IMG/VR virus record: IMGVR_UViG_3300030329_001564
Location: 1-31,688 of that record
Source of the DNA: a virus
Length of the DNA stretch: 31,688 nt
Strand: one strand, 5' to 3'
The stretch's first letter is position 1. Each line of letters begins with the position of its first letter. The translations under genes and the position numbers were made by a program. Under the pieces are notes generated by a model, which saw only the letters and a list, made by a program, of their open reading frames with translations, searched no databases and was not told where the DNA came from. Below are positions 6,843 to 26,930 of this stretch, in pieces.

Positions 6843-7078
6843 TGGACGAAATACTAAAGTTAAAAAGACAAATTAAGCAAACCCTACAGGCTATATCACT
6901 TGCATTGACTTCAGGTGCAGGGGTTGACAATTTTGAGTCTTATAAGTATATGTTAGGACAGATAAACGCTTACGAAGCAATCTTACAGGAGATTTCCAAC
7001 CTGCTTGAAAAAAAGGAGCAATATGAAAAACACACAGGAAACGTCATCGACATCAACGACAGACATACCAAAAATTAA
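6842..7078 (+). CDS. Small helical protein, 78 aa
   Basis: The ATG overlaps the stop of the preceding gene by one base. The product is predicted largely helical with heptad-like Leu/Ile spacing (LKRQIKQTLQAISLAL, YEAILQEISNLLEKKEQYEK), so a small coiled-coil protein is likely. Its 3' end overlaps the start of the GroES gene by 56 nt in another frame, and the ribosome binding site of GroES lies inside it. The function is not recognisable. Confidence 0.68.
   Translation: MDEILKLKRQIKQTLQAISLALTSGAGVDNFESYKYMLGQINAYEAILQEISNLLEKKEQYEKHTGNVIDINDRHTKN
7014..7018 (+). promoter_or_regulatory. Ribosome binding site deciding the GroES start
   Basis: AGGAG lies 4 nt before ATG 7023. It favours this start over the upstream in-frame TTG at 7005, which has no such element and would itself cover the site. 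Confidence 0.5.
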
Positions 7079-7445
7079 ATCAGCATTAACAGATAAATAC
7101 AAAGAAGAATCAGCTAAGTTGCCAAAACCAACTGGTTGGAGAATTTTAGTTCTTCCTTTTCAAGGGAAGAAAAAAACTAAAGGAGGAATTCTATATTCCG
7201 ATGAACAAATCGATAGACAACAACTCGCAACAGTATGTGGAAACGTACTTGAGATGGGTCCCGATTGTTATAGGGATAAAGAAAGATATCCCGATGGTCC
7301 GTGGTGCAAAAAGGGAGACTGGGTAATATTTGCTCGGTATGCAGGATCTCGGTTTAAAATAGAAGGTGGAGAAGTACGACTGTTAAACGATGATGAAATC
7401 ATCGCAACAATTAAGAACCCAGAGGATATAATCCATGAGTTCTAA
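7023..7445 (+). CDS. groES: Phage co-chaperonin GroES (Cpn10 family)
   Basis: The 140-aa product carries the Cpn10 fold signature after a Ser/Thr-rich extension of about 40 residues. It has PTGWRILVLPF at the first strand, a KKKTKGGILYSDEQ mobile loop with the hydrophobic GGIL that docks to GroEL, then GNVLEMGPDCY, a GDWVIF strand and a terminal DDEIIATI strand. Bacterial GroES is about 97 aa, so this one has an N-terminal extension and an insertion around PDGPWCKK. It would cap the host GroEL cage to fold phage proteins; T4 gp31 is the established example of a phage co-chaperonin needed for capsid protein folding. Its place just before scaffold and capsid genes fits that role. No GroEL partner is present in the window. 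Confidence 0.9.
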   Translation: MKNTQETSSTSTTDIPKIKSALTDKYKEESAKLPKPTGWRILVLPFQGKKKTKGGILYSDEQIDRQQLATVCGNVLEMGPDCYRDKERYPDGPWCKKGDWVIFARYAGSRFKIEGGEVRLLNDDEIIATIKNPEDIIHEF

Positions 7446-15856: not shown

Positions 15857-16300
15857 ATGGCTTATTTAGGAAATGCCCCAAAAAATAATTTATTGACCAT
15901 GAACTCTTCGCAGTACAGTGGTGATAATTCTAATACAACTTTTACACTTACACAATCTGTAGGAAACGTTAACGAAATTGAAGTTTACGTTGGAAACGTC
16001 CGTCAGGATCCGTTTTCAGCTTATTCAGTAACAGGTGGAACTAGTTTAGTTTTTACCGCAGCTCCTCCTTTAGGAACTAATAACGTTTATGTAGTATACC
16101 AAGGTAAAGCTGTAGGTACGACTACACCTGGAGAAAATTCAATTGAATTCGGAATGATAAAATCAATTAACGGTGGTTATGAAAACAAAGCAACTGTATC
16201 AACAGCATTAACTATTGATGCAACCGATAATATGATGCTTTGTGGTCCAGTAAGTTTTACAGGAACAGTCACAGTAAATGGAACATTAACGGTAGTATAA
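15857..16300 (+). CDS. Fibre-base protein (AYLG type), copy 1
   Basis: The 147-aa product starts AYLGNAPKNN and has a beta domain with FTLTQSVGNVNEIEVYVGNV, RQDPFSAYSV and NNVYVVYQGKAVG, common at the beginnings of phage tail fibres. The C-terminus ends in CGPVSFTGTVTVNGTLTVV, a strand-turn pattern suited to joining another fibre part. 19252-19710 has the same start, order and ending (GPVTISGTITI), so the two are paralogues. Each is followed at once by an anchor-type-1 adhesin. AGGAGG precedes the start. Confidence 0.7.
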   Translation: MAYLGNAPKNNLLTMNSSQYSGDNSNTTFTLTQSVGNVNEIEVYVGNVRQDPFSAYSVTGGTSLVFTAAPPLGTNNVYVVYQGKAVGTTTPGENSIEFGMIKSINGGYENKATVSTALTIDATDNMMLCGPVSFTGTVTVNGTLTVV

Positions 16301-16301
16301 T

Positions 16302-16844
16302 ATGGCAACATTATTTGTAGATAAAGTAGACCCGCAATCAGGAACAAGTTTAGAGCTAGGTACATCAGGGGATACGGTTTCAATAGGATCAGGGGTTACA
16401 CAAACAATAGCTGTTAATACTCCATCCTTTCAAGCTACGGTAAATGCAGCACAAACTATAGCAACAGGAACAGCAACTAAAATAAATTTTAATACTGAAA
16501 ATTTTGATACGGACGGAACATATGATGTCAGCTCATATAGATTTACTCCTGCAGTAGCAGGTAAATATTTAATTCATGGAAGAATTGGTTGGGCAGATGA
16601 ACCTGTTGAAGATAAATCACAAGAAACTCGTATCTTTAAAAATGGTAGTTTAGTTTTTCAAGCCAATAGAAGAACAGCAGCGTCAACAGGAAGAGACGCT
16701 ACTGTTGCTTGTATAGCTATAGTAGATTTAGGTGCAAGTGATTATGTAGAAATTTTTGGTTATCACAACTCAGGATCAGATGCTGATACGCTTAATTCGA
16801 CTACAGCATGTTTATTTGAGGGGTACAAATTAATTGGGGTTTAA
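16302..16844 (+). CDS. C1q/TNF-like adhesin, copy 1
   Basis: Residues 1-40 form an anchor module (FVDKVDPQSGTSLELGTSGD, then TVSIGSG) shared with several neighbours. Residues about 42-180 look like a C1q/TNF-type jelly roll: SFQATVNAAQ, FDTDGTYDVSSYRFTPAVAG, KYLIHGRIGW, an IFKNG turn, DLGASDYVEIFGYHNSGS and a final FEGYKLIGV strand. Such trimeric jelly rolls serve as ligand-binding tips in phages and bacteria. No chaperone-like gene follows; the next genes are two further copies. The start lies 1 nt behind the previous stop and lacks a clear ribosome binding site. Confidence 0.75.
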   Translation: MATLFVDKVDPQSGTSLELGTSGDTVSIGSGVTQTIAVNTPSFQATVNAAQTIATGTATKINFNTENFDTDGTYDVSSYRFTPAVAGKYLIHGRIGWADEPVEDKSQETRIFKNGSLVFQANRRTAASTGRDATVACIAIVDLGASDYVEIFGYHNSGSDADTLNSTTACLFEGYKLIGV

Positions 16845-16850
16845 TAAATT

Positions 16851-17378
16851 ATGGGAACACTTAAAACAACAAACATACAATCGATATCTGGATCAGGAAC
16901 AGTGACTCTTGGTACATCGGGAGAGACTTTTACAGTTCCAAATGGTGTTACAGTAGCAGGAGGTTTGACTAACACTCCAATGTGGTACGCAAAATCTGCT
17001 GCAAATCAAACAGGAATTGCAACAGCCACAGCCACAAAATTAACTTATGGGACGGAAGTAATTGATACTGATAGTGCTTTTGCAACTAGCAAATTTACTG
17101 TTCCTGCTTCAAAGGCGGGTAAATATTTTATTAAAGGGACTATAACGTGGTCTAGCGGCGCTTGGACTTCTCAACAAATTTTATATATTTATAAAAACGG
17201 AGCAAACGCTTATGCAGAATATAGATATAAAGATGCAACAGATATGGGTATGGAAGTTACGGCTGTTTTAGATTTAGCAGTAAGTGATTATATAGAAATT
17301 TATTGTTATCAACCATCAGGTAGTAGTAGAGATACTTGGAGTTCACCATATTCATTTTTTGGATATAAATTAACGTAG
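16851..17378 (+). CDS. C1q/TNF-like adhesin, copy 2
   Basis: This 175-aa paralogue of its neighbour has an anchor with SGSGTVTLGTSGETFTVPNG, then the jelly-roll marks PMWYAKSAANQ, FTVPASKAGKYFIKGTITW, IYKNGANAYAEY, DLAVSDYIEIYCYQPSGSS and FFGYKLT. Outside these marks the loops differ greatly from copies 1 and 3, as expected if the loops contact different receptors. It has no partner chaperone gene and no clear ribosome binding site. Confidence 0.75.
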   Translation: MGTLKTTNIQSISGSGTVTLGTSGETFTVPNGVTVAGGLTNTPMWYAKSAANQTGIATATATKLTYGTEVIDTDSAFATSKFTVPASKAGKYFIKGTITWSSGAWTSQQILYIYKNGANAYAEYRYKDATDMGMEVTAVLDLAVSDYIEIYCYQPSGSSRDTWSSPYSFFGYKLT

Positions 17379-17385
17379 GAATATT

Positions 17386-17931
17386 ATGGGATCAATTATT
17401 AAAGTAAACGAATATAAAGATTTTAACAACAACGACATCATGACGAGTGATGGTTCGGGGAATGTTACTGTTAATGCAGATGGTTTAAAAAACGTTCCAG
17501 CTTTTTTTGCAACCCTTTCCGCAGATGATAGCTCAACTTATACAGACCAAGCTACTACAAAACTACGATTTAATTCTGAAATTTTTGACACTGCGGGTGC
17601 TTACGACAATAGCACAAATTACAGATTTACAGTACCATCTGGTCAAGCTGGTAAATATCAAATAAATGCCGCAGTTTATGGAAATAAATCTAATGATCTT
17701 TTTAATTTACAAATTAATTTATATTTAAATGGAAGCACCAGTAATTACACTTCAATAGGTAATGATAGTGATGAAAATGACTATTCGGCCTGGTGTAGTC
17801 TTAATCCAATTTTAAATTTATCGGCGGGCGATTATTTAGAATGCTACGTTTATAATGATGTAGGTTCTGGAACAATCACTATTGCTGGAACAAAAACTTA
17901 TTTTGGAGCATACAAATTAATAGGGGTATAG
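17386..17931 (+). CDS. C1q/TNF-like adhesin, copy 3
   Basis: The anchor is a variant (SIIKVNEYKDFNNNDIMTSD) related to ILKVDELQDSSG of the gene at 21466. The jelly-roll part shows PAFFATLSADD, FDTAGAYDNSTNYRFTVPSG, QAGKYQINAAVYG, a LYLNGS turn, NLSAGDYLECYVYNDVGSG and FGAYKLIGV, matching copies 1 and 2 in order and length (181 aa). Extra Asn/Asp/Ser-rich loops mark the middle. Probably a third fibre-tip or head-fibre adhesin. Confidence 0.75.
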   Translation: MGSIIKVNEYKDFNNNDIMTSDGSGNVTVNADGLKNVPAFFATLSADDSSTYTDQATTKLRFNSEIFDTAGAYDNSTNYRFTVPSGQAGKYQINAAVYGNKSNDLFNLQINLYLNGSTSNYTSIGNDSDENDYSAWCSLNPILNLSAGDYLECYVYNDVGSGTITIAGTKTYFGAYKLIGV

Positions 17932-17934
17932 ATT

Positions 17935-18549
17935 ATGGCATTAAGTAAAATAGACGGAACAAATTTAATAGAACCAACGATACCAGTAGCTTCTGGAGGA
18001 ACAGGTGTTACAACGGCCGCTAATTTGGCGAATACAGGAAATTTAGTCCTACTTGATACAACAACTATTGATAGTGGGGATGCAAGTAAAACTATTAATC
18101 CACCATTTAGCACTACATATAAATCTTACAGAATAATTGGGAAAGGAATAAATAATGCTACGGACAATGTTCATTTAAATTTTACATTAGTTCAATCTGA
18201 TGGCACAGAACAAACAGCTAGTTATTACTATTCAGCAGTTGGTCAAAGAGGAGCTGGAAATGCAGTTGATGATGGTGCTTCTAATACTACCGATTGGAGA
18301 ATAATTGGAAATGCAGCTAATACAGGTCAATCAATTAATTTTGACATGATTTTAACTTTTCCAGCTAATAGTGGCTATTATACAAGTTATATTTGTACTG
18401 CTGGTGGAAGAAGATCAGGAGGAGATGCACAAGTTTTAACTGCTGGAGGATATGTAAATGTAACAACAGCTTTTACACAATTAAAATTTATAGCATCATC
18501 AGGTAATCTTGGGGGCGGAGTTATAACAACTTACGGATTGGTAGAATAA
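17935..18549 (+). CDS. Family B adhesin on a GGTG anchor, copy 1
   Basis: The N-terminal 40 residues (KIDGTNLIEPTIPVASGGTG) form an anchor also seen at 22305 and inside the collar fibre at 23788. The C-terminal beta domain, called family B here, starts VLLDTTTIDSGDASKTI, continues with TTYKSYRIIGKGINN and a long Asn/Ser/Gly-rich loop region, and ends ITTYGLVE. Comparable domains occur at the ends of phage tail-fibre proteins. A tail-assembly-chaperone-like gene follows after 1 nt. Function as a receptor-binding tip is inferred. Confidence 0.7.
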   Translation: MALSKIDGTNLIEPTIPVASGGTGVTTAANLANTGNLVLLDTTTIDSGDASKTINPPFSTTYKSYRIIGKGINNATDNVHLNFTLVQSDGTEQTASYYYSAVGQRGAGNAVDDGASNTTDWRIIGNAANTGQSINFDMILTFPANSGYYTSYICTAGGRRSGGDAQVLTAGGYVNVTTAFTQLKFIASSGNLGGGVITTYGLVE

Positions 18550-18550
18550 T

Positions 18551-18793
18551 ATGAGTACATTAAAGGATGCATTAGATAATTTAAGACATTTACGAGATAG
18601 CTTTTTAAAAAAATGTGATTGGACAGTTTTATCGGATAGTCAATTATCAGAAGCTAAAATAAATGAATGGAAAATTTATAGACAATCTCTTAGAGATTTA
18701 ACTTCAGGTTTGGATACTATTGAAAAAGTAAACACTAAACTTGAAATAGGAGAGGATGGAAAGTATAAAAATTTTCCAACAAAACCAGAATAA
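18551..18793 (+). CDS. Tail assembly chaperone-like protein (PF16778 type), short form
   Basis: The 80-aa product carries the pattern LRHLRDSFLKKCDWTVLSDS, then WKIYRQSLRDLTSGLDTIEK. The sDWTvLpDS...W..YR..LRDL core is that of small phage tail assembly chaperones encoded beside tail-fibre genes. Compared with the homologue at 22975 it lacks the N-terminal 30 residues or so and has a different tail (KLEIGEDGKYKNFPTKPE). It is coupled to the family B adhesin upstream. A fossil of another chaperone tail lies just behind it. Confidence 0.75.
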   Translation: MSTLKDALDNLRHLRDSFLKKCDWTVLSDSQLSEAKINEWKIYRQSLRDLTSGLDTIEKVNTKLEIGEDGKYKNFPTKPE

Positions 18794-18799
18794 TTATGA

Positions 18800-18862
18800 T
18801 ATATAAAAGGAATTACGACCAAAGAACAAGCAGAAGCGGTTGTATTTTCAACAAAACCATAA
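18800..18862 (+). pseudogene. Fossil C-terminus of a tail assembly chaperone
   Basis: A 20-codon frame bounded by TGA (18797) and TAA (18860) reads YIKGITTKEQAEAVVFSTKP. Residues GITTKEQAEAVVFSTKP align without gaps to GLTTVEEVDAVIWPTEP at the end of the chaperone at 22975. It has no start codon or ribosome binding site, so it is best read as the remnant of a deleted or replaced chaperone gene. Confidence 0.6.
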
Positions 18863-18888
18863 TATAAGATAACAAAGGAGTAAAAACT

Positions 18889-19239
18889 ATGGCATCACTA
18901 TCAAGCAAAGTAAAGCAGTATTGCGCTAATAATGGCGTGGCATCTGTTGACTTTACAGTAGACGTTTTGCTTCAGGATGACTCAGACGGTAAAGGCCCTT
19001 ACATAAAAAGCTGGAATGTTTCTGGCTTGGCTCAACCAACTGACGATCAACTGAACTCTGTAGACTCTGCTGCTGATCTCGATGAGAGACAAAACGCTGC
19101 AAGATCTGCAAGAAGAAGCGCCTATGGTGACTGGAATAGCCAGCTCGACATGCAGTACCACGATTCAAAAGATGGTACATCTACTTGGGAAGACCACGTA
19201 GAAGCTGTCAAAACTGCAAATCCAATCCCAACAGAGTAA
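18889..19239 (+). CDS. Small fibre-associated protein with QLD-type C-terminus, GC-rich
   Basis: The 116-aa product ends in a module RRSAYGDWNSQLDMQYHDSK followed by WEDHVEAVKTANP, shared with the end of the gene at 20296. Related tails close many small proteins encoded beside phage fibres. The N-terminal part differs (YIKSWNVSGLAQPTDDQLNS). Hand-counted GC for 18901-19200 is 46%, against 27% for 18541-18660, and codons use more C and G, so this gene and the next probably came from another phage. AAGGAG precedes the start. A chaperone or fibre-assembly role is inferred from context. Confidence 0.72.
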   Translation: MASLSSKVKQYCANNGVASVDFTVDVLLQDDSDGKGPYIKSWNVSGLAQPTDDQLNSVDSAADLDERQNAARSARRSAYGDWNSQLDMQYHDSKDGTSTWEDHVEAVKTANPIPTE

Positions 19240-19251
19240 AGGAACTAACAC

Positions 19252-19710
19252 ATGGCCTACGTCGGAAAATCGCCCCAGACGGGTGCGTATCAAATTTTGG
19301 ACGATATATCAGGATCGTTCACCGGATCAACACCAGGACCGTTTAACTTAACGGTTGGCGGGACAGCTGTGTCTCCAGGAAACGAAGCATCAGTAATTAT
19401 TTCTGTTTCATCTGTGATTCAAGAACCAATTTCCGCGTTTACTATTACAGGGTCTACAATTTCTTTTACCGGCAATCCTGCTGCATCAGATACTTTTTTT
19501 GGTGTAGTCTTGGGTGATACATATGACATCGGCACACCGACAGACGCGACGGTGACCGCTGGTTCTTTAGCGTCAACTTTTTTTATGAAAAACGCTCAGA
19601 CATGGTCAAGTATATCTATGTCGGGTTCTAACAACGGAGCATTGGTTGGTCCAGTTACAATATCAGGAACAATCACTATTCCATCAGGGAGCACTTTCGC
19701 AATATTATAA
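19252..19710 (+). CDS. Fibre-base protein (AYVG type), copy 2, GC-rich
   Basis: This paralogue of 15857-16300 begins AYVGKSPQTGAYQILDDISG and has VIISVSSVIQEPISAFTITG and SDTFFGVVLGDTYDIG in place of the first copy's VYVGNVRQDP and NNVYVVYQGK. It ends GPVTISGTITIPSG. GC of 19261-19680 is 44% by hand count, clearly above the adhesin genes on both sides, and similar to 18889-19239. It overlaps the start of the next adhesin by one base. The high GC suggests recent arrival with its upstream neighbour. Confidence 0.7.
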   Translation: MAYVGKSPQTGAYQILDDISGSFTGSTPGPFNLTVGGTAVSPGNEASVIISVSSVIQEPISAFTITGSTISFTGNPAASDTFFGVVLGDTYDIGTPTDATVTAGSLASTFFMKNAQTWSSISMSGSNNGALVGPVTISGTITIPSGSTFAIL

Positions 19711-20294
19711 TGAGTACACTTGAAACAAATTTAGTTCAACCAGCTACAGGCACTACATTAACTTTAGGTGCTTCAGGGGATACAGTAGACATACCATCAG
19801 GCGCTACTCTTGATGTAACTGGTGCAACAGTATCAGGTTTAAGTGCAGGAAAAGTTTTACAAGTTGTTAGTGCAATTAAAACTGATACACAAAGTCTTAA
19901 TGCTACAACTTGGACAGATATAACTGGTTTAACAGTTGATATAACACCATCAGCAACTTCATCAAAAGTTTTAGTTCTTGGTTATATAACAGTTTCTTCT
20001 CCTAATCATGGTCATACAAGATGCGTAAGAGGTTCAACAGTTATTGGTGCTGGAGTTGCGTCAGGAAGTAGAGGAGCAGTTTCAGGTTATGCAAATTCAG
20101 ATGGTAATTCAGCAAATGTTCAACCATTTATTTTTCTAGATAGCCCCAACACAACCTCATCAACAACTTATCATTTTGAGTTAGAAAGTGATAATGGAGC
20201 ACAAAGTTATATTAATAGAACACCAAATGACACAGATGCTATTTATGGTAGTAGAGGTTCAAGTACAATAACAGTTATGGAGATAGGAGCTTAA
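19710..20294 (+). CDS. Family C adhesin on type-1 anchor, copy 1
   Basis: The anchor (TLETNLVQPATGTTLTLGAS, then GDTVDIPSGATLDV) matches those at 16302, 20593 and 21466. The C-terminal domain, family C here, starts GKVLQVVSAIKTDTQS, contains ITPSATSSKVLVLGYITVSS and FIFLDSPNTTSSTTYHFELE, and ends with a TITVMEIGA strand. The domain is shared with 21466-22041. It is an all-beta tip domain of phage fibres; ligand unknown. A small helical partner gene follows after 1 nt. AT-rich composition resumes at this gene. Confidence 0.7.
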   Translation: MSTLETNLVQPATGTTLTLGASGDTVDIPSGATLDVTGATVSGLSAGKVLQVVSAIKTDTQSLNATTWTDITGLTVDITPSATSSKVLVLGYITVSSPNHGHTRCVRGSTVIGAGVASGSRGAVSGYANSDGNSANVQPFIFLDSPNTTSSTTYHFELESDNGAQSYINRTPNDTDAIYGSRGSSTITVMEIGA

Positions 20295-20295
20295 T

Positions 20296-20589
20296 ATGAT
20301 AGATAGTTTTGTAGATAAAGCAATTTTAAAAATTAATCCTAATGCAAAATATTCCATAGATGCAGATGATACTTCAAGAATATCTGAAGATGATATTATT
20401 TCTAAAATAAATGAATTAAGAGCAGATTATAATTCTAAAGAATATCAAAGAATTAGACAATTTAAGTATGATCGAATTGAAAATCAATTAGATCAATTAT
20501 GGCACGATATTAATGATAATAAATTAGATAAAAGTGGCTCTTGGTTTAAATCAATTAAAGCAGTTAAAGACGCAAATCCAAAGGAGTAA
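20296..20589 (+). CDS. Small fibre-assembly protein: beta N-module plus QLD C-module
   Basis: The 97-aa product combines an N-module (VDKAILKINPNAKYSIDADD) related to the start of the gene at 22041 (EAVLKIKPDAQISVSGED) with a C-module (RIENQLDQLWHDIND, then WFKSIKAVKDANPKE) shared with 18889-19239. It is charged and mostly helical. GGAG lies upstream, inside the adhesin gene. By position it should be the assembly partner of the family C adhesin. Chaperone function is inferred, not shown. Confidence 0.7.
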   Translation: MIDSFVDKAILKINPNAKYSIDADDTSRISEDDIISKINELRADYNSKEYQRIRQFKYDRIENQLDQLWHDINDNKLDKSGSWFKSIKAVKDANPKE

Positions 20590-20592
20590 TCA

Positions 20593-21252
20593 ATGGCAGA
20601 CGGAATATTAAAAGTAGGACAAATTCAAACTAGCTCTGGATCAGGGACGATTACTATTGGTCAATCTGGAGAGACTATTTCTGTACCAACTGGTGCAACA
20701 ATTAATTTATCAAACGCTACTCAAACAGGAGTAGGAGATTGTGTTTTAATATCCACTACAACTATGAGCGGAACAGCAAGTACTATTGATATAACAAGTG
20801 GAATTGATTCTACTTACACAGTTTATAAACTTTATTTTACAAATGTAAGTGCAGAAGGAGCAGGGAATACTGTATGGATGACTATTTCCAACGATGGAGG
20901 ATCATCTTTTACTGGTTCCAATTATATTCACACAGGTTATGAAGTTAATTACACTGGAAGTGGTTCATCAAGTTCTATTCAAGGAGCAAATAATTTTGTT
21001 CAAATAGCAAATAATTTAGCTAACTATAATGATGCTACTACAGAAGGAGCCTGTGGGTATGTAGAATTTTACACACCTAATTTAACTAGAAAACCAGTAT
21101 TTACCGGAATGACAGCACAATATAATGACGCTGGTTCTGCAGACGCTTATTACTGGGGTGGTATGAATACAGTGGCCACAACAATTAATGCCATTAGATT
21201 TGGAGCATCTAATAACCTACATGGAACACTTAAATTATATGGGTATAAATAA
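20593..21252 (+). CDS. Family B adhesin on type-1 anchor, copy 2
   Basis: The anchor (GILKVGQIQTSSGSGTITIG, then QSGETISVPTG) is the same type as at 16851 and 19710, not the GGTG type carried by the other two family B proteins. The C-terminal domain begins VLISTTTMSGTASTIDI, continues with STYTVYKLYFTNVSAEG and YGYK at the end, matching family B in order, with a long variable middle. This is direct evidence that anchors and tips have been exchanged. AAGGAG precedes the start; a partner gene follows without a gap. Confidence 0.7.
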   Translation: MADGILKVGQIQTSSGSGTITIGQSGETISVPTGATINLSNATQTGVGDCVLISTTTMSGTASTIDITSGIDSTYTVYKLYFTNVSAEGAGNTVWMTISNDGGSSFTGSNYIHTGYEVNYTGSGSSSSIQGANNFVQIANNLANYNDATTEGACGYVEFYTPNLTRKPVFTGMTAQYNDAGSADAYYWGGMNTVATTINAIRFGASNNLHGTLKLYGYK

Positions 21253-21447
21253 ATGAAAAAATTAGTAAATGGTGTTTTAATGGATATGACAGCAGCGGAT
21301 TTAGCTCAAAGAGAAAAAGATTTAGCTCATGTTGAAGAATTAAAACAAAACAAAATTACAAAAGAAAATAACAAAACTTCAGGTAAAGCAAAATTAAAAA
21401 GTGGTGAAGCTTTAACGGATGCAGAAATAGATGCATTATTTGGATAA
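21253..21447 (+). CDS. Small fibre-assembly protein: alpha N-module plus KLK C-module
   Basis: The 64-aa product has an N-module NGVLMDMTAADLAQREKD that aligns with NNELIEITGSELTELETREK of the chaperone at 22975, and a C-module AKLKSGEALTDAEIDALFG that aligns with the end of 22041 (AKLKALGLTDDEIAAL). The start directly abuts the stop of the family B adhesin. It is helical and charged. It is probably a shortened tail-fibre assembly partner; alternatively a small fibre subunit. Confidence 0.68.
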   Translation: MKKLVNGVLMDMTAADLAQREKDLAHVEELKQNKITKENNKTSGKAKLKSGEALTDAEIDALFG

Positions 21448-21465
21448 TTATGGTAAAGGAATACA

Positions 21466-22041
21466 ATGACTAGTATATTAAAAGTAGATGAATTACAGGA
21501 TTCTTCAGGTAATTTAATAATTAAAGAAGTTGGAAATGCCATTACTATTGGAGCGAGTGGGGATACGATAACTGTACCTTCAGGAGCAACAATAACAAAT
21601 TCTGGAACGGCGACAGGTTTTGGAAAAATTTTACAGGTGGTTACTGCAACCGATAATAGTCTTAGGTCAACAACTTCTACAAGTTATGTAACTGCTTCTA
21701 ATACTTTAGCAGCTACTATAACTCCATCTGCGACTTCGTCAAAAATTTTTGTTACAACTCAATTTACTGTTGGACTTGCAGCAGATGACCAAGTTGCTAC
21801 GTATACAATTTATAGAGATAGCACTGATTTAGGAGATAGTGGTGGTGAGGGAATGGTAAGAGCAGCAGTATTTAATGCTGGTTATGATGCTTATTTTCCT
21901 GCGGCTATGAGTATTCTTGATTCACCTTCATCTACATCATCTTTAACGTACCAAGTCTATTTGAAAACAAGTAAAAGTACTGGTTATATTAATTATGGTG
22001 CCGGAAAAGTATCACTAACAGCATTTGAGGTAGCAGGATAA
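21466..22041 (+). CDS. Family C adhesin on type-1 anchor, copy 2
   Basis: The anchor (SILKVDELQDSSGNLIIKEV, then IGASGDTITVPSGATITNSG) is a longer version of type 1. The family C domain begins GKILQVVTATDNSLRS, contains ATITPSATSSKIFVTTQFTV and MSILDSPSSTSSLTYQVYLK, and ends LTAFEVAG. Core strands match 19710-20294, while the loops between differ. The stop overlaps the start of the partner gene by one base. Confidence 0.7.
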   Translation: MTSILKVDELQDSSGNLIIKEVGNAITIGASGDTITVPSGATITNSGTATGFGKILQVVTATDNSLRSTTSTSYVTASNTLAATITPSATSSKIFVTTQFTVGLAADDQVATYTIYRDSTDLGDSGGEGMVRAAVFNAGYDAYFPAAMSILDSPSSTSSLTYQVYLKTSKSTGYINYGAGKVSLTAFEVAG

Positions 22042-22295
22042 TGAAAAATAAAATTATAGAAGCAGTTTTAAAAATTAAACCTGATGCACAGATTAGTGTA
22101 AGTGGAGAAGATATTAATAGTATTGTTTGGGAAAATGGAGAAACTCCAATTTCTAAAGCTGATATAGAAGCTCAAATTCCTATTGTAGTAAAAGAAATGG
22201 AAGATGCAATTACTAAAAAAACAACCGACAAAGCTTCAGCTGATGCAAAATTAAAAGCACTTGGTTTAACAGACGACGAGATAGCGGCATTATAG
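22041..22295 (+). CDS. Small fibre-assembly protein: beta N-module plus KLK C-module
   Basis: The 84-aa product has the N-module of 20296 (KIIEAVLKIKPDAQISVSGE) but ends with the C-module of 21253 (DAKLKALGLTDDEIAAL). The middle is a charged helix (VVKEMEDAITKKTTDKASAD). It is translationally coupled to the family C adhesin. Both family C adhesins in the window are followed by a partner with this N-module. Confidence 0.7.
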   Translation: MKNKIIEAVLKIKPDAQISVSGEDINSIVWENGETPISKADIEAQIPIVVKEMEDAITKKTTDKASADAKLKALGLTDDEIAAL

Positions 22296-22304
22296 GAGAA
22301 TATT

Positions 22305-22982
22305 ATGGCACTAACAAGATTACCAATGGTTAACGCAGTTTCAGGAACACTTGCTGTTGCTAATGGTGGGACTGGCGTAGCTTCAGGAACTACAGGACAA
22401 TTTTTAAAATTTACAGGAAGTACGACACTTGCAAGTGCCGCAGCTGGATCTTGGGTGTTACTAGATACTCAAACTGTTTCTGGAACTCCAACAAGTATAG
22501 AACCAGGAGCAATATTTTCTGCTACTTATGATGATTATGTTGTTGTAATAGCACGATATAATAATGTTAGTGGCGGTGGATTACATTTTCAACTTGGAAC
22601 ATCATCTGCATATACAACAAGTGGTTATAGATGGAATGGAAGTGGTGTTGGTGGAGCTGGTTCTTCACTTGTAACAGGAAGTGCATCTGCCTCAGAAATT
22701 GATTTATTAGGTGGCACAAGTTCATCATATCACGTTAATAGTTCCCAAGATTGTTTAAGTGGAGTTATTTGGATTCACAATCCTTTCAATAGTGCAAGAA
22801 CATCTGTTCATGCGGAAATGGCATGGGAAAATGCAAGTGATGTTGATGCACATATAAATAATGTGGGAGCCCATCCTAATACAGATACATCATACGATAG
22901 ATGGAAATTAATTTGTCCAAGTACATCGCAAACATTTGAAGCTTCAACTATAATAGAGACATATGGAGTGGTTAATGGCTAA
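22305..22982 (+). CDS. Family B adhesin on a GGTG anchor, copy 3
   Basis: The anchor contains TLAVANGGTGVASGTTGQFL, close to the middle segment of the collar fibre (AVTEGGTG, then GTQGQFLRAG). The family B domain begins WVLLDTQTVSGTPTSIE, then ATYDDYVVVIARYNNVSGGG, a Gly/Ser-rich variable middle, and ends TIIETYGVVNG. AGGAG precedes the start. The stop overlaps the start of the following chaperone by 8 nt. Confidence 0.7.
   Translation: MALTRLPMVNAVSGTLAVANGGTGVASGTTGQFLKFTGSTTLASAAAGSWVLLDTQTVSGTPTSIEPGAIFSATYDDYVVVIARYNNVSGGGLHFQLGTSSAYTTSGYRWNGSGVGGAGSSLVTGSASASEIDLLGGTSSSYHVNSSQDCLSGVIWIHNPFNSARTSVHAEMAWENASDVDAHINNVGAHPNTDTSYDRWKLICPSTSQTFEASTIIETYGVVNG
22965..22968 (+). promoter_or_regulatory. 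Ribosome binding site deciding the chaperone start at 22975
   Basis: GGAG lies 6 nt before ATG 22975. The earlier in-frame ATG at 22963 overlaps this site and has no binding site of its own. Confidence 0.45.
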
Positions 22983-23274
22983 ATATAAACACGTAAACAA
23001 TGAATTAATTGAAATTACGGGAAGTGAATTAACAGAATTAGAAACTAGAGAAAAAGCATGGGATGATAATGCTTTAAACAGAGCTTTATTAAGTTTAAGA
23101 TTTAAAAGAAACAATTTATTAAAAGAATCAGATTGGACAGTTTTACCAGATTCACCAATAGCTGACAAAACAGCGTGGCAAAATTATAGAACAGAATTAA
23201 GGGATTTAACAAACGGATTAACGACAGTAGAAGAAGTAGACGCTGTTATATGGCCCACTGAACCAGGAGCGTAA
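22975..23274 (+). CDS. Tail assembly chaperone (PF16778 type), full form
   Basis: The 99-aa product has an N-module (NNELIEITGSELTELETREK), then the chaperone core SLRFKRNNLLKESDWTVLPD, SPIADKTAWQNYRTELRDLT and a tail GLTTVEEVDAVIWPTEPGA. This R..LL..SDWTvLPDSPi...W..YR.eLRDL pattern is the tail-assembly-chaperone family whose members are encoded directly after tail fibres and help the tip fold or attach. It overlaps the family B adhesin upstream. ATG 22975 is preferred because GGAG precedes it. Confidence 0.8.
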   Translation: MAKYKHVNNELIEITGSELTELETREKAWDDNALNRALLSLRFKRNNLLKESDWTVLPDSPIADKTAWQNYRTELRDLTNGLTTVEEVDAVIWPTEPGA

Positions 23275-23276
23275 AG

Positions 23277-23777
23277 ATGTTTGGTAATCTGGCTTTTTGT
23301 GAAGCACCTTTTGCAACACAAGGTGTTGAGATTAGAATTGTCTCGGTAAGTGGTGTTCAGGTAAACACTGCAATAGGTACCTCGACAATAACTGGTAATG
23401 CAACAGTTACTTTAAGTGGTAATGCATTACAAGTATTAACAGGGACTCCAACCATTTCTATCGATCATTCGGTAGCCGTAAGTGGAGTTGAAGTAGAAGT
23501 ATCTCTTGGAACTTCTACTATAAAAGGTGGGGCGACAGTTGCTGTAACGGGCAATGCGTTAAATGTATCGCTAGGAAACGTTACAGTAGTAGTTGGAGTA
23601 GATGTACCTGTCACAGGAGTACAGTTGCAAGCTTCAACAGGAAGTGTTACTATAAAAGGTAATGCTACTATTACCGTTTCAGGTAATGCATTAAACGTGG
23701 CTACTGGGGAATTAGTAGCACAAGCTTGGACCGAAGTGGACGATGCAAATCCAAACACTTGGACAAGAGTAGATTAG
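23277..23777 (+). CDS. Beta-repeat fibre protein with exact 22-residue period
   Basis: The 166-aa product begins MFGNLAFCEAPFATQGVEIR, as do other marine phage structural proteins. Residues 24-155 are six 22-residue repeats that alternate two types: SGV-x-V (24, 68, 112) and SGNAL-x-V (46, 90, 134), so the larger unit is 44 residues. Regular strand-turn repeats of this kind suggest a beta-solenoid or beta-roll shaft. The end carries two Trp repeats (WTEVDD, WTRVD). GGAG precedes the start. Likely a fibre shaft or virion surface protein. Confidence 0.72.
   Translation: MFGNLAFCEAPFATQGVEIRIVSVSGVQVNTAIGTSTITGNATVTLSGNALQVLTGTPTISIDHSVAVSGVEVEVSLGTSTIKGGATVAVTGNALNVSLGNVTVVVGVDVPVTGVQLQASTGSVTIKGNATITVSGNALNVATGELVAQAWTEVDDANPNTWTRVD
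23346..23741 (+). repeat. Three tandem 132-bp coding repeats
   Basis: Starts at 23346, 23478 and 23610 give three 132-bp units, each made of two 66-bp halves. Codons are diverged between units while the SGV and SGNAL positions are kept, so selection acts on the protein. Confidence 0.8.
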
Positions 23778-25001: not shown

Positions 25002-26930
25002 ATGGCGCTAACAGCTATAAAATTAGCACCCGGCATTAACAAACAGCTCACTGAAACAGGAGCCGAAGGCCAATGGGTAGATTGTGATATGGTTAGATTT
25101 AGATATGGACTTCCAGAAAAAATAGGTGGTTGGACGCAAGTTGGAAATAAAGCTTTACTTGGCGCACCTAGAGCTCAACAAACTTTTTTATCTTTAGAAT
25201 CAGAAAAATTTGATTCAATTGCTACTAATAAAAAGCAATACATATTTCAAGAAACTAATACTACTTTCTATGATGTAAGCCCTCAAAGATATGGAGCTTA
25301 TGGTCATACAGGAGTTGCTCAAGCTTTAACTTCAGCCTTTACTACTGTTAGTGGTGACGCTACTGTCACGGTTCACTGGACAGGTAATGGAGCAGTAGCC
25401 GGAGATTTTGTAACATTTGCTAGTGTAACAGCTCCATCAGGTTCAGGATATTCTAATGGTGATTTTGAAAAAGAATTTGAAATACAAACGGTTGCTACTA
25501 ATAGTTTTACAATTGAAATGGCTAGCACTGCAAGTGGTAACGTTTCTACTAATGGGTCAGCTACAGCTACTATTCAATTAAATACTGGAGACGCAACTTC
25601 TGTATTAGGTTTTGGATGGAGTGCTGGAACATGGAGTCAATCTACATGGGGTACAGCTAGACCAAGTACAGTTGCAATTGATGCTGAAAACTGGACGATA
25701 GATTTATATGGAGAAGATATTATTGCTACAAAATTTAATGGTGGAACTTATATTTGGGACACTAGTGCTTTTAAATCAAGCATGCTACCGATGATTAATT
25801 TAATTGATTACGATACTTCAGTAGCAGCGCCTTATTTTACAAGAAATAAAAACACAGCAACTATGCCACATCAAAGTTTATTTAGTTTAATTTCAACACC
25901 AGACAGACATTTAGTTATGTTTGGAACTTCAGATTTAGGATCAAGTAATAATCAAGATCCTATGATGGTTAGATTTTCTAACCAAGAAGACATTACAGAG
26001 TTTACCCCTAAGTCAACAAATACTGCGGGGTTTCAAAGAATATCCGATGGATCAGAAATAAGAGCGGCTGTTCGTTCAAGAGGACAAATTCTGATTTGGA
26101 CTGACACTTCATTGCATTCTATGCAATTTATAGGACCTCCTTTTACTTTCGGATTTAAGCAACAAGGTAGACAGTGCGGATGCGTTGGGCAGCACGCGGC
26201 GGTAGATGTGGATGGTGTCGCTTATTGGATGGGTTCTTCAGGTGGATTCTTGAAGTATGATGGATCCGTTCAAACCATCCCATGTACAGTAGAAGATTAT
26301 GTATTTAATGATATTCGACTGGTACCTGAAATATATACAGCTGTTAATGATGAATTTAATGAAATTAGCTGGTTTTATCCAAGTGAAACTTCAAATGTTA
26401 TTGATAGAGTAGTGACCTATAATCACCTAGAAAATGTATGGTCAGTGGGTACTTTATCTAGAACCACATGGTCTGACAAAGGAGTATTTGCAAAACCTTA
26501 CGCAACAGAGTATAATCAAACTTCTACATCTACAGCAGCTCCTACTGTTCAGGGAGTTAGTTCAGGAAGAGGTTTTTTATATGCACAAGAAACAGGAAAC
26601 AATGCTAATGGACAAGCATTACCAGCAAATCTTACATCAGGAGATTTTTTCTTACAAGAAGGAGAAGATCTAGTGTCAATTTCTAGATTTATTCCTGACT
26701 TTAAAAATTTAGATGGAACAGTTAACGTAACATTACAGTTAACTAATTATCCAGCTACAGCAAAAACAGGAAGTCCTTTAGGACCTTTTGCTATTACAAG
26801 TTCAACAACTAAAAGAGATTGTAGAGCACGTGCAAGACAAGTTGCTTTATATATCGCTAGCTCAGCAGTAAATGATTCATGGAGATTTGGTACATTTAGA
26901 GCTGATCTTAAACCAGCGGGGAGACGTTAA
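25002..26930 (+). CDS. Tail hub/nozzle protein, P22 gp10-like
   Basis: The 642-aa product opens with KLAPGINKQLTETGAEGQWV and VRFRYGLPEKIGGW, the signature of the tail hub (packaged-DNA stabilisation) family that forms the hexameric tube below the gp4 adaptor. An inserted beta domain of about 75 residues (TVSGDATVTVHWTGNGAVAG to TATIQLN) follows near residue 113. The core then shows AAPYFTRNKNTATMPHQSL, DRHLVMFGTSDLG, IRAAVRSRGQILIWTDTSLH and YWMGSSGGFLKYDG, which look like beta-propeller blades. P22 gp10 is 472 aa. AGGAG precedes the start; location behind the fibres fits a podovirus. Confidence 0.78.
   Translation: MALTAIKLAPGINKQLTETGAEGQWVDCDMVRFRYGLPEKIGGWTQVGNKALLGAPRAQQTFLSLESEKFDSIATNKKQYIFQETNTTFYDVSPQRYGAYGHTGVAQALTSAFTTVSGDATVTVHWTGNGAVAGDFVTFASVTAPSGSGYSNGDFEKEFEIQTVATNSFTIEMASTASGNVSTNGSATATIQLNTGDATSVLGFGWSAGTWSQSTWGTARPSTVAIDAENWTIDLYGEDIIATKFNGGTYIWDTSAFKSSMLPMINLIDYDTSVAAPYFTRNKNTATMPHQSLFSLISTPDRHLVMFGTSDLGSSNNQDPMMVRFSNQEDITEFTPKSTNTAGFQRISDGSEIRAAVRSRGQILIWTDTSLHSMQFIGPPFTFGFKQQGRQCGCVGQHAAVDVDGVAYWMGSSGGFLKYDGSVQTIPCTVEDYVFNDIRLVPEIYTAVNDEFNEISWFYPSETSNVIDRVVTYNHLENVWSVGTLSRTTWSDKGVFAKPYATEYNQTSTSTAAPTVQGVSSGRGFLYAQETGNNANGQALPANLTSGDFFLQEGEDLVSISRFIPDFKNLDGTVNVTLQLTNYPATAKTGSPLGPFAITSSTTKRDCRARARQVALYIASSAVNDSWRFGTFRADLKPAGRR

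Follow-up and report, generated by a model that had tools for sequence, protein, structure and literature searches.

Two putative four-position adhesin sets with exchangeable tips and two-domain chaperone-like partners in a viral genome fragment

Gene content of the adhesin array

We have analyzed an array of small adhesin genes and adjacent chaperone-like genes in IMG/VR virus record IMGVR_UViG_3300030329_001564, a sequence of 31,688 bases that was treated as a genome fragment and is hereafter called the window. The array spans positions 15857 to 23274, where every gene is open, lies on the + strand and is closely packed against its neighbors. It is arranged as two consecutive sets, each composed of an adaptor/shaft gene (S) followed by four adhesin genes, the tips, with each of the four places (slots) having its own N-terminal anchor. 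Small partner genes are interspersed among the tips.

Set 1 opens with S1 (15857-16300, 147 aa), which matched the tail fiber protein N-terminus family phrog_18673 (E 1e-11). Slots 1 to 3 (16302-16844, 16851-17378 and 17386-17931) carry C1q-like tips of family A behind the anchors MATLFVDK (residues 1-38), MGTLKTTNI and MGSIIKVNE, respectively, and slot 4 (17935-18549) carries a family B tip behind the GGTG-type anchor MALSKID. The slot 4 partner (18551-18793) consists of an APC module alone (PF16778, E 8.9e-12). A further partner at the junction of the two sets (18889-19239) combines an XkdW (beta-type) N-module with a QLD C-module (PF09636, E 1.4e-11; phrog_9114, E 2.8e-27).

Set 2 opens with S2 (19252-19710, 152 aa; phrog_18673, E 1.3e-46), which is 60% and 53% identical to its counterparts in the cultured phages Lederberg and HTVC115P. 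Here, slot 1 (19710-20294) holds a family T tip with the anchor MSTLETN, followed by a partner with a beta N-module and a QLD C-module (20296-20589; phrog_9114, E 1.3e-17; phrog_1787, E 1.4e-15). The tip B of slot 2 (20593-21252; anchor MADGILKVGQI, ITLG type) precedes an alpha plus KLK partner (21253-21447), and the tip T of slot 3 (21466-22041; anchor MTSILKVDELQD), for which a TNF-like lectin fold is predicted, precedes a beta partner with a helical KLK C-module (22041-22295). Slot 4 (22305-22982) contains a tip B behind the GGTG-type anchor MALTRLP, and its partner (22963-23274, alternative start 22975) joins an alpha N-module to an APC C-module (PF16778, E 1.9e-15; PDB 2kz6, E 1.2e-6). 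The array ends at a chimera junction (23275-23292), located through the DNA matches of relatives, with a P22-gp10-type tail backbone to its right.

A first-pass annotation, made by a model from the letters of this DNA, had listed eight tip genes of three families and five partners, all of which are open where it placed them. It overlooked the 18889-19239 partner, the two S genes and the slot-specific anchors. The anchor layer cuts across the tip families, since the B tip at 20593 has an ITLG anchor and those at 17935 and 22305 have GGTG anchors. The three families themselves were recovered in an all-against-all comparison: the C1q-like tips at 16302, 16851 and 17386 (E 8e-29 to 3e-16), family B (17935, 20593 and 22305) and family T (19710 and 21466, E 9e-20; family C in the first-pass annotation). 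The tip proteins have 175-225 aa, with an N-terminal anchor of ~38-50 aa and a C-terminal tip of ~130-175 aa.

We have then considered the fold of the tips. The 16302 product scored below the gathering threshold of the C1q domain PF00386 (E 0.0026, 18.4 vs 23.7 bits), and is thus C1q-like, with no confirmed membership of the Pfam family. The model of tip T (21466 product, pLDDT 89.2) was a jelly roll matching the lectin PLTL (9ib7) with a Z-score of 15.9 and an rmsd of 1.7 over 124 residues, and the N-domain of BC2L-C with a Z-score of 14.8. Tip T is therefore predicted to be a TNF-like jelly roll nearest to these sugar-binding lectins, and the tips probably form TNF/C1q-like trimers that bind sugar. 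PDB sequence searches with tips B and A gave no match, and no gp10-type domain (T4 gp10-like XD) was found in the tips by profile search. The tip T profile matched the C-terminal 160 residues of “orf22” in PDB 9efk (18 chains, E 8e-18), a solved structure that may reveal how tips of this family are mounted.

Slot order and exchange of tips among related loci

About 140 related loci (numbered with the prefix L) were gathered from public collections, cultured pelagiphages included. Onto all of them we have mapped profile hidden Markov models (HMMs) of tips A (C1q-like), A' (an A-like subset), T and B; of the ITLG, GGTG and S anchors; of the partner N-modules alpha, beta, gamma and xkd; and of the C-modules APC (equivalent to PF16778), KLK and QLD. 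Counterparts of S1 stand before slot 1 in L035, L068, L069, L103, L122 and L127.

The anchors of the successive slots proved recognizable across phages, being MS[TK]LETN, MA[DN]G.LKV..I, MT[SA]ILK.D.IQD and MA[LI]TR for slots 1 to 4 of set 2, and MATLFVDK, MGT.KTTNI, M[AG]SIIK.N and MALSKID for those of set 1. The closest anchor of another phage lay in the same slot in 84/85 (set 2) and 23/23 (set 1) cases, whereas the closest tip domain did so in merely 38/85 and 9/23; none of 1,000 within-locus permutations reached the contrast of the anchors. All sets with both borders present (19 of type 2 and three of type 1, read from the arrays) contained four tips, two script counts having been mended by eye (L046, where an unrecognized partner had halted the script, and L122, with a frameshifted slot 2). 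The cultured SAR11 phages HTVC115P and Lederberg likewise have S plus four tips in the anchor order of the window, with the fillings A, A, A, other and T, T, T, T, respectively; neither was matched in a search with the gp10-like protein of the window. Hence, a tandem array of variable tip number is rejected for the clade of the window.

Two irregularities of the slots were observed. A longer slot 4 protein (348-381 aa) behind the usual MA[LI]TRI anchor occurs in L051, L046, L056, L059 and L069, usually followed by a distinct gene of 56-69 aa, often with a MINTVTK-like start; this is a tip/partner family beyond the four classes. In L122 (~7.2-7.8 kb), the coding sequence of the slot 2 tip is interrupted, with 42 aa of anchor in one frame and 163 aa of C1q-like sequence in a different one, which reflects either a broken or frameshifted gene or a sequencing error.

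The filling of the slots varied widely, with 62 different architectures in the 72 loci having at least three tips, and three DNA-level transfers had sharp edges. Between the set 2 slot 3 payload of the window with its partner (21559-22291) and slot 1 of L051, identity was 94.7%, the upstream anchors being unrelated in DNA. The set 1 slot 1 tip matched L039 with 85% DNA identity starting at 16416, that is, at the anchor/tip edge. The set 2 slot 1 payload and partner were 84% identical, from 19848 onward, to an S-fused gene in L034. This bore out the first-pass proposal that tips and partners recombine. The block at 18.87-19.73 kb is kept at 72-85% DNA identity in ~20 loci. At the right edge of the array, L007, L011 and L017 matched the tail backbone rightward from 23275-23292 (74-84% DNA identity); L007 and L011 also extend to the left of this junction and carry unrelated fibers there. 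Conversely, the DNA match of L022, L026, L027 and L028 stopped at 23273-23279, with nothing further right. Arrays identical in all relatives were thus excluded as far as content is concerned; slot number, though, is fixed.

These observations bear on how the tips are used. The first-pass annotation had offered two possibilities, several binding specificities in one particle or a reservoir for switching. According to the latter, the genes would form a loose store of tandem duplicates, of which one or a few are in use at once and others are swapped in on need. Payloads do switch slots, as seen with window slot 3 and L051 slot 1, and the ITLG repeat is common to anchors of different slots, which makes intragenomic recombination plausible. 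Yet such a store is very unlikely, given that slot number and order are constant across phages while the contents vary, and that the genes are all open, co-directional and tightly packed. In addition, neither an invertase nor a reverse transcriptase was found among the scanned genes of the window fragment, and no inverted repeats were found in 15.8-23.3 kb. Several specificities per particle are favored instead, because the number of slots stays at four and every slot keeps its own anchor across phages. From this slot conservation, the four tips of each set are probably displayed together on one particle.

Partner modules and their linkage to tips and anchors

The modular make-up of the partners was confirmed by profile matches. 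PF16778 (Phage_tail_APC, gathering score 26.6) was matched by the 18551 and 22963 partners with 45.1 and 56.9 bits, and PF09636 (XkdW, gathering score 24.6) by the 18889 partner with 44.4 bits. The 20296 and 22041 partners had no Pfam match, being assigned through phrog_9114 only, with the N half in the case of 22041 (E 7e-5). Within the window, the KLK module (21253 and 22041) and the beta N-module (20296 and 22041) each linked their two partners with E-values of ~1e-3, and the matches became strong when relatives were added. Altogether, the window has six partners, and partner sizes are 64-116 aa.

Tip-partner gaps in the window were +1, +1, 0, -1 and -8 or -20 nt, the last depending on whether the ATG at 22975 or at 22963 is used. 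Among 178 nonredundant pairs with the partner directly downstream of the tip, the most frequent gaps were -1, +1 and -4 nt. A small partner gene comes after tips of families B, T and A', and mostly not after plain A tips. Each of the five B and T tips of the window has its partner, as first reported; among relatives, consecutive tips of one family may share a partner. Thus, three or four same-family tips have a single downstream partner in L141 and L143 (Lederberg), L135 (HTVC010P), L136 (HTVC034P), L037 and L038, so that a single partner probably suffices for several tips. Strict 1:1 pairing is therefore rejected, T/B runs sharing one partner and A tips usually having none. Same-family runs close with one partner, and a T or B tip never directly preceded a tip of another family (0/122 for T and 0/29 for B). 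Natural tip-partner fusions, which would prove interaction, were not found in the loci.

The N-module of the partner followed the family of the preceding tip. In the classified cases among the 178 pairs, T was followed by beta in 98/98, A' by gamma in 29/33, A by xkd in 21/22 and B by alpha in 9/9, with 11 further B pairs unclassified. Tip family and N-module shared 1.33 of 1.50 bits of mutual information (89%) over 162 classified pairs, a value reached by none of 2,000 shuffles, while tip family and C-module in the full set shared 32% of the entropy. The C-modules of T pairs were KLK (73), QLD (12), APC (7) or none (9). Since L061-L134 had been recruited by a beta plus KLK query, we have repeated the analysis without them, and the 62 pairs not recruited by a partner query gave 1.80 of 1.89 bits. 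Different module combinations had been described in the first-pass annotation; exchange of the C-module stood up to this analysis, and free shuffling of the N-module did not, the latter being tied to tip family. A chance origin of the pattern is ruled out by the profile matches and permutation tests.

A label-free matrix correlation gave the same picture, with r of 0.80 for tip and N-module, 0.33 for tip and C-module, 0.00 for anchor and N-module, and 0.26 for anchor and C-module. Inside the T/beta/KLK pairs, tip and N-module (0.19, 0/500 permutations) and anchor and C-module (0.38, 0/500) remained correlated, the values for tip and C-module and for anchor and N-module being -0.01 and 0.03. 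Likewise, the C-module differed between GGTG and ITLG slots (0/300 permutations) and the N-module did not. These correlations define two linkage groups: the tip and the partner N-module form an inner payload, the anchor and the partner C-module an outer frame. Because the N-module matches the tip and the C-module goes with the anchor and slot frame, the evolving unit, as read from these sequences, is the tip together with the N-module of its partner, a mobile unit that spans a gene boundary.

Part of this pattern could also arise from descent and linkage alone, with four inherited tip genes recombining at homologous positions without four docking sites, and with tip and N-module covarying through adjacency. 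The loci are indeed related, the permutation tests ignore phylogeny, and physical adjacency by itself would co-transfer tip and N-module. However, the anchor and the C-module covary even though they are non-adjacent within the cassette, the slot order is also present in HTVC115P and Lederberg despite their lack of a match to the gp10-like protein, and direct succession of a T or B tip by another family (0/151 overall) is absent despite slot reshuffling. We consider this explanation rather unlikely.

Assembly, known systems and genomic setting

The reading that best accommodates these results, to which we assign a probability of roughly 0.7, is that of two adhesin sets, each with four fixed positions, whose TNF/C1q-like tips are exchangeable and whose two-domain chaperones are similar to Tfa and Pam3 gp25. 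In cyanophage Pam3, the variable N-domain of gp25 binds a TNF-like tip and the conserved helical C-domain trimerizes (PMC9608196), an anatomy from which an N-module that follows the tip is to be expected. The partners described here would be tail fiber chaperones of this kind, as is Mu Tfa, with the N-domain gripping the cognate tip and the helical C-domain trimerizing; tip and N-domain would therefore move jointly, and any C-domain would suffice. Payload would move between slots and phages by recombination, upstream probably in the conserved anchor repeat (ITLG/GASGDT..PSGAT) and downstream probably in the partner C-module or the next anchor. Each anchor would dock at its own tail site, so that all four tips of a set would be built into one particle.

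A wider proposal, to which we give even odds, is that the products form heteromeric complexes with four docking positions in each of two sets, filled combinatorially from an ocean-wide pool of TNF/C1q-like tips in which the chaperone N-half acts as the passport of a tip. On this proposal, the inherited unit would cross the gene boundary and assembly compatibility would be held in separate anchor and chaperone codes.

Several observations weigh against the four-position sets and their chaperones. Structure prediction, a check suggested in the first-pass annotation, was performed for one tip and one partner and supported the TNF-like fold of tip T and, weakly, the anatomy of the partner. Chaperones of the Pam3 gp25/Tfa kind combine a beta-sandwich N-domain with a helical C-domain that trimerizes. 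The model of partner 22041 (pLDDT 91.5), with a small alpha/beta N part and a long helical C part (helices 39-73 and 78-83), had no confident fold match (VIA/Foldseek), XkdW 2hg7 reaching a Z-score of only 3.3. Other pelagiphage groups have two-tip or three-tip sets (two tips in HTVC026P, 035P and 203P; B-runs in HTVC010P and 034P), which makes “four” a clade rule. Some tips show a slot preference (A in 2, A' in 3 and T in 4), and inside A'/gamma the finer correlation of tip and N-module was not significant. Sequences of the window served as seeds for the module HMMs, and those for A' were picked beside gamma partners, the label-free test being independent of those labels. Finally, the loci share kinship and many are fragmentary, so that counts are not independent events, and the permutations take no account of phylogeny.

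The partners could alternatively be structural end-caps or receptor-binding subunits that remain on the tips. The gp38 of phage S16 is such a tip adhesin staying on the fiber (comparison in PMC9608196), and a transient “cap” role has been proposed for Alteromonas phage chaperones (PMC10579305). This is quite improbable for the partners of the array: the PF16778 and XkdW families are represented among them, they are small, and a single partner can suffice for three or four tips in a row; moreover, mass spectrometry did not detect Pam3 gp25 in virions (PMC9608196).

As chaperones, the partners resemble Pam3 gp25 and Mu Tfa in being encoded by a small gene directly after the tip gene and in having a tip-matched variable N-domain and a separately conserved C-domain (PMC9608196). 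Unlike these, the window has six partners in one genome, with no fewer than three C-modules that can recombine (APC, KLK and QLD) and some partners serving several tips, and the N-module rule was tested over ~160 pairs. In the Alteromonas phages A5 and V22, a fiber and its cognate chaperone are shared jointly between unrelated marine phages (PMC10579305). That is a single fiber/chaperone pair, whereas the window has arrays, and the edge of a transferred unit can fall within the chaperone gene.

For the slots, the closest parallel is TSP1-TSP4 of the Ackermannviridae and CBA120. Passages of PMC8432352 and PMC11414711 describe four adjacent receptor-binding proteins with position-conserved N-termini and variable C-terminal receptor modules; the modules sometimes sit on a different TSP, and the conserved N-termini are proposed as recombination sites. 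The window sets are alike in comprising four proteins with position-specific N-termini and exchangeable C-termini. In the same passages, TSP1-4 are large beta-helix tailspikes joined through T4 gp10-like XD domains, and partner chaperones are not mentioned, whereas the window has TNF/C1q-like tips, two sets and tip-linked partners, and its anchors have 38-50 aa vs the 88 residues given there for XD2 of CBA120 TSP2. The four-slot sets thus work like TSP1-4 but, since gp10-like XD domains were not found in them, are not filed as members.

PMC3909814 describes host-recognition islands of HTVC010P-like pelagiphages, with tail fiber, C1q, XkdW and tail fiber assembly genes that are hypervariable in metagenomes; these under-recruiting metaviromic islands are the same kind of locus as the array. 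The terms “chaperone” and “recombination” are absent from its text as covered by a term search, and for that reason it probably contains no description of slots, anchors or the partner rule. We found no description of the slot grammar in the open-access papers searched. The kind is already known from Ackermannviridae TSP1-4 and Tfa chaperones, and the combination looks new.

Few biological entities of the sea are as abundant as SAR11 bacteria and their phages and, to our knowledge, few receptors of SAR11 phages are known. The slot-and-payload grammar makes tip genes, partners and positions readable from metagenome sequence, and it predicts several specificities per particle as well as an explicit code matching a chaperone half to an adhesin tip. 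This prediction is directly testable, because two cultured SAR11 phages carry S and a four-tip set.

Outside the array, the window encodes a capsid protein, a portal of the SU10-like type and, at 25002-26930, a P22-gp10/“stabilization”-type protein. The named phages nearest by this last protein were DSL-LC04, the Pelagibacter phages HTVC023P and HTVC027P, and 023Pt_psg01 (40-47% identity), and the phage records searched with the DNA of 10000-31688 contained no near match. The window derives from a marine, podovirus-like phage that is probably related to SAR11 phages. A phage-encoded GroES co-chaperonin lies at 7005-7445 (phrog_3188, E 1.9e-19), an annotation also present in HTVC027P and 023Pt_psg01. 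Directly to the right of the array, an internal-repeat protein (23277-23777, VTGVQ..TGxxTI..G) is kept in the backbone relatives L007, L011 and L017, and a 2OG-Fe(II) oxygenase annotation recurs as a neighbor on at least one fiber-region gene in the named backbone relatives L003, L004, L005 and L006.

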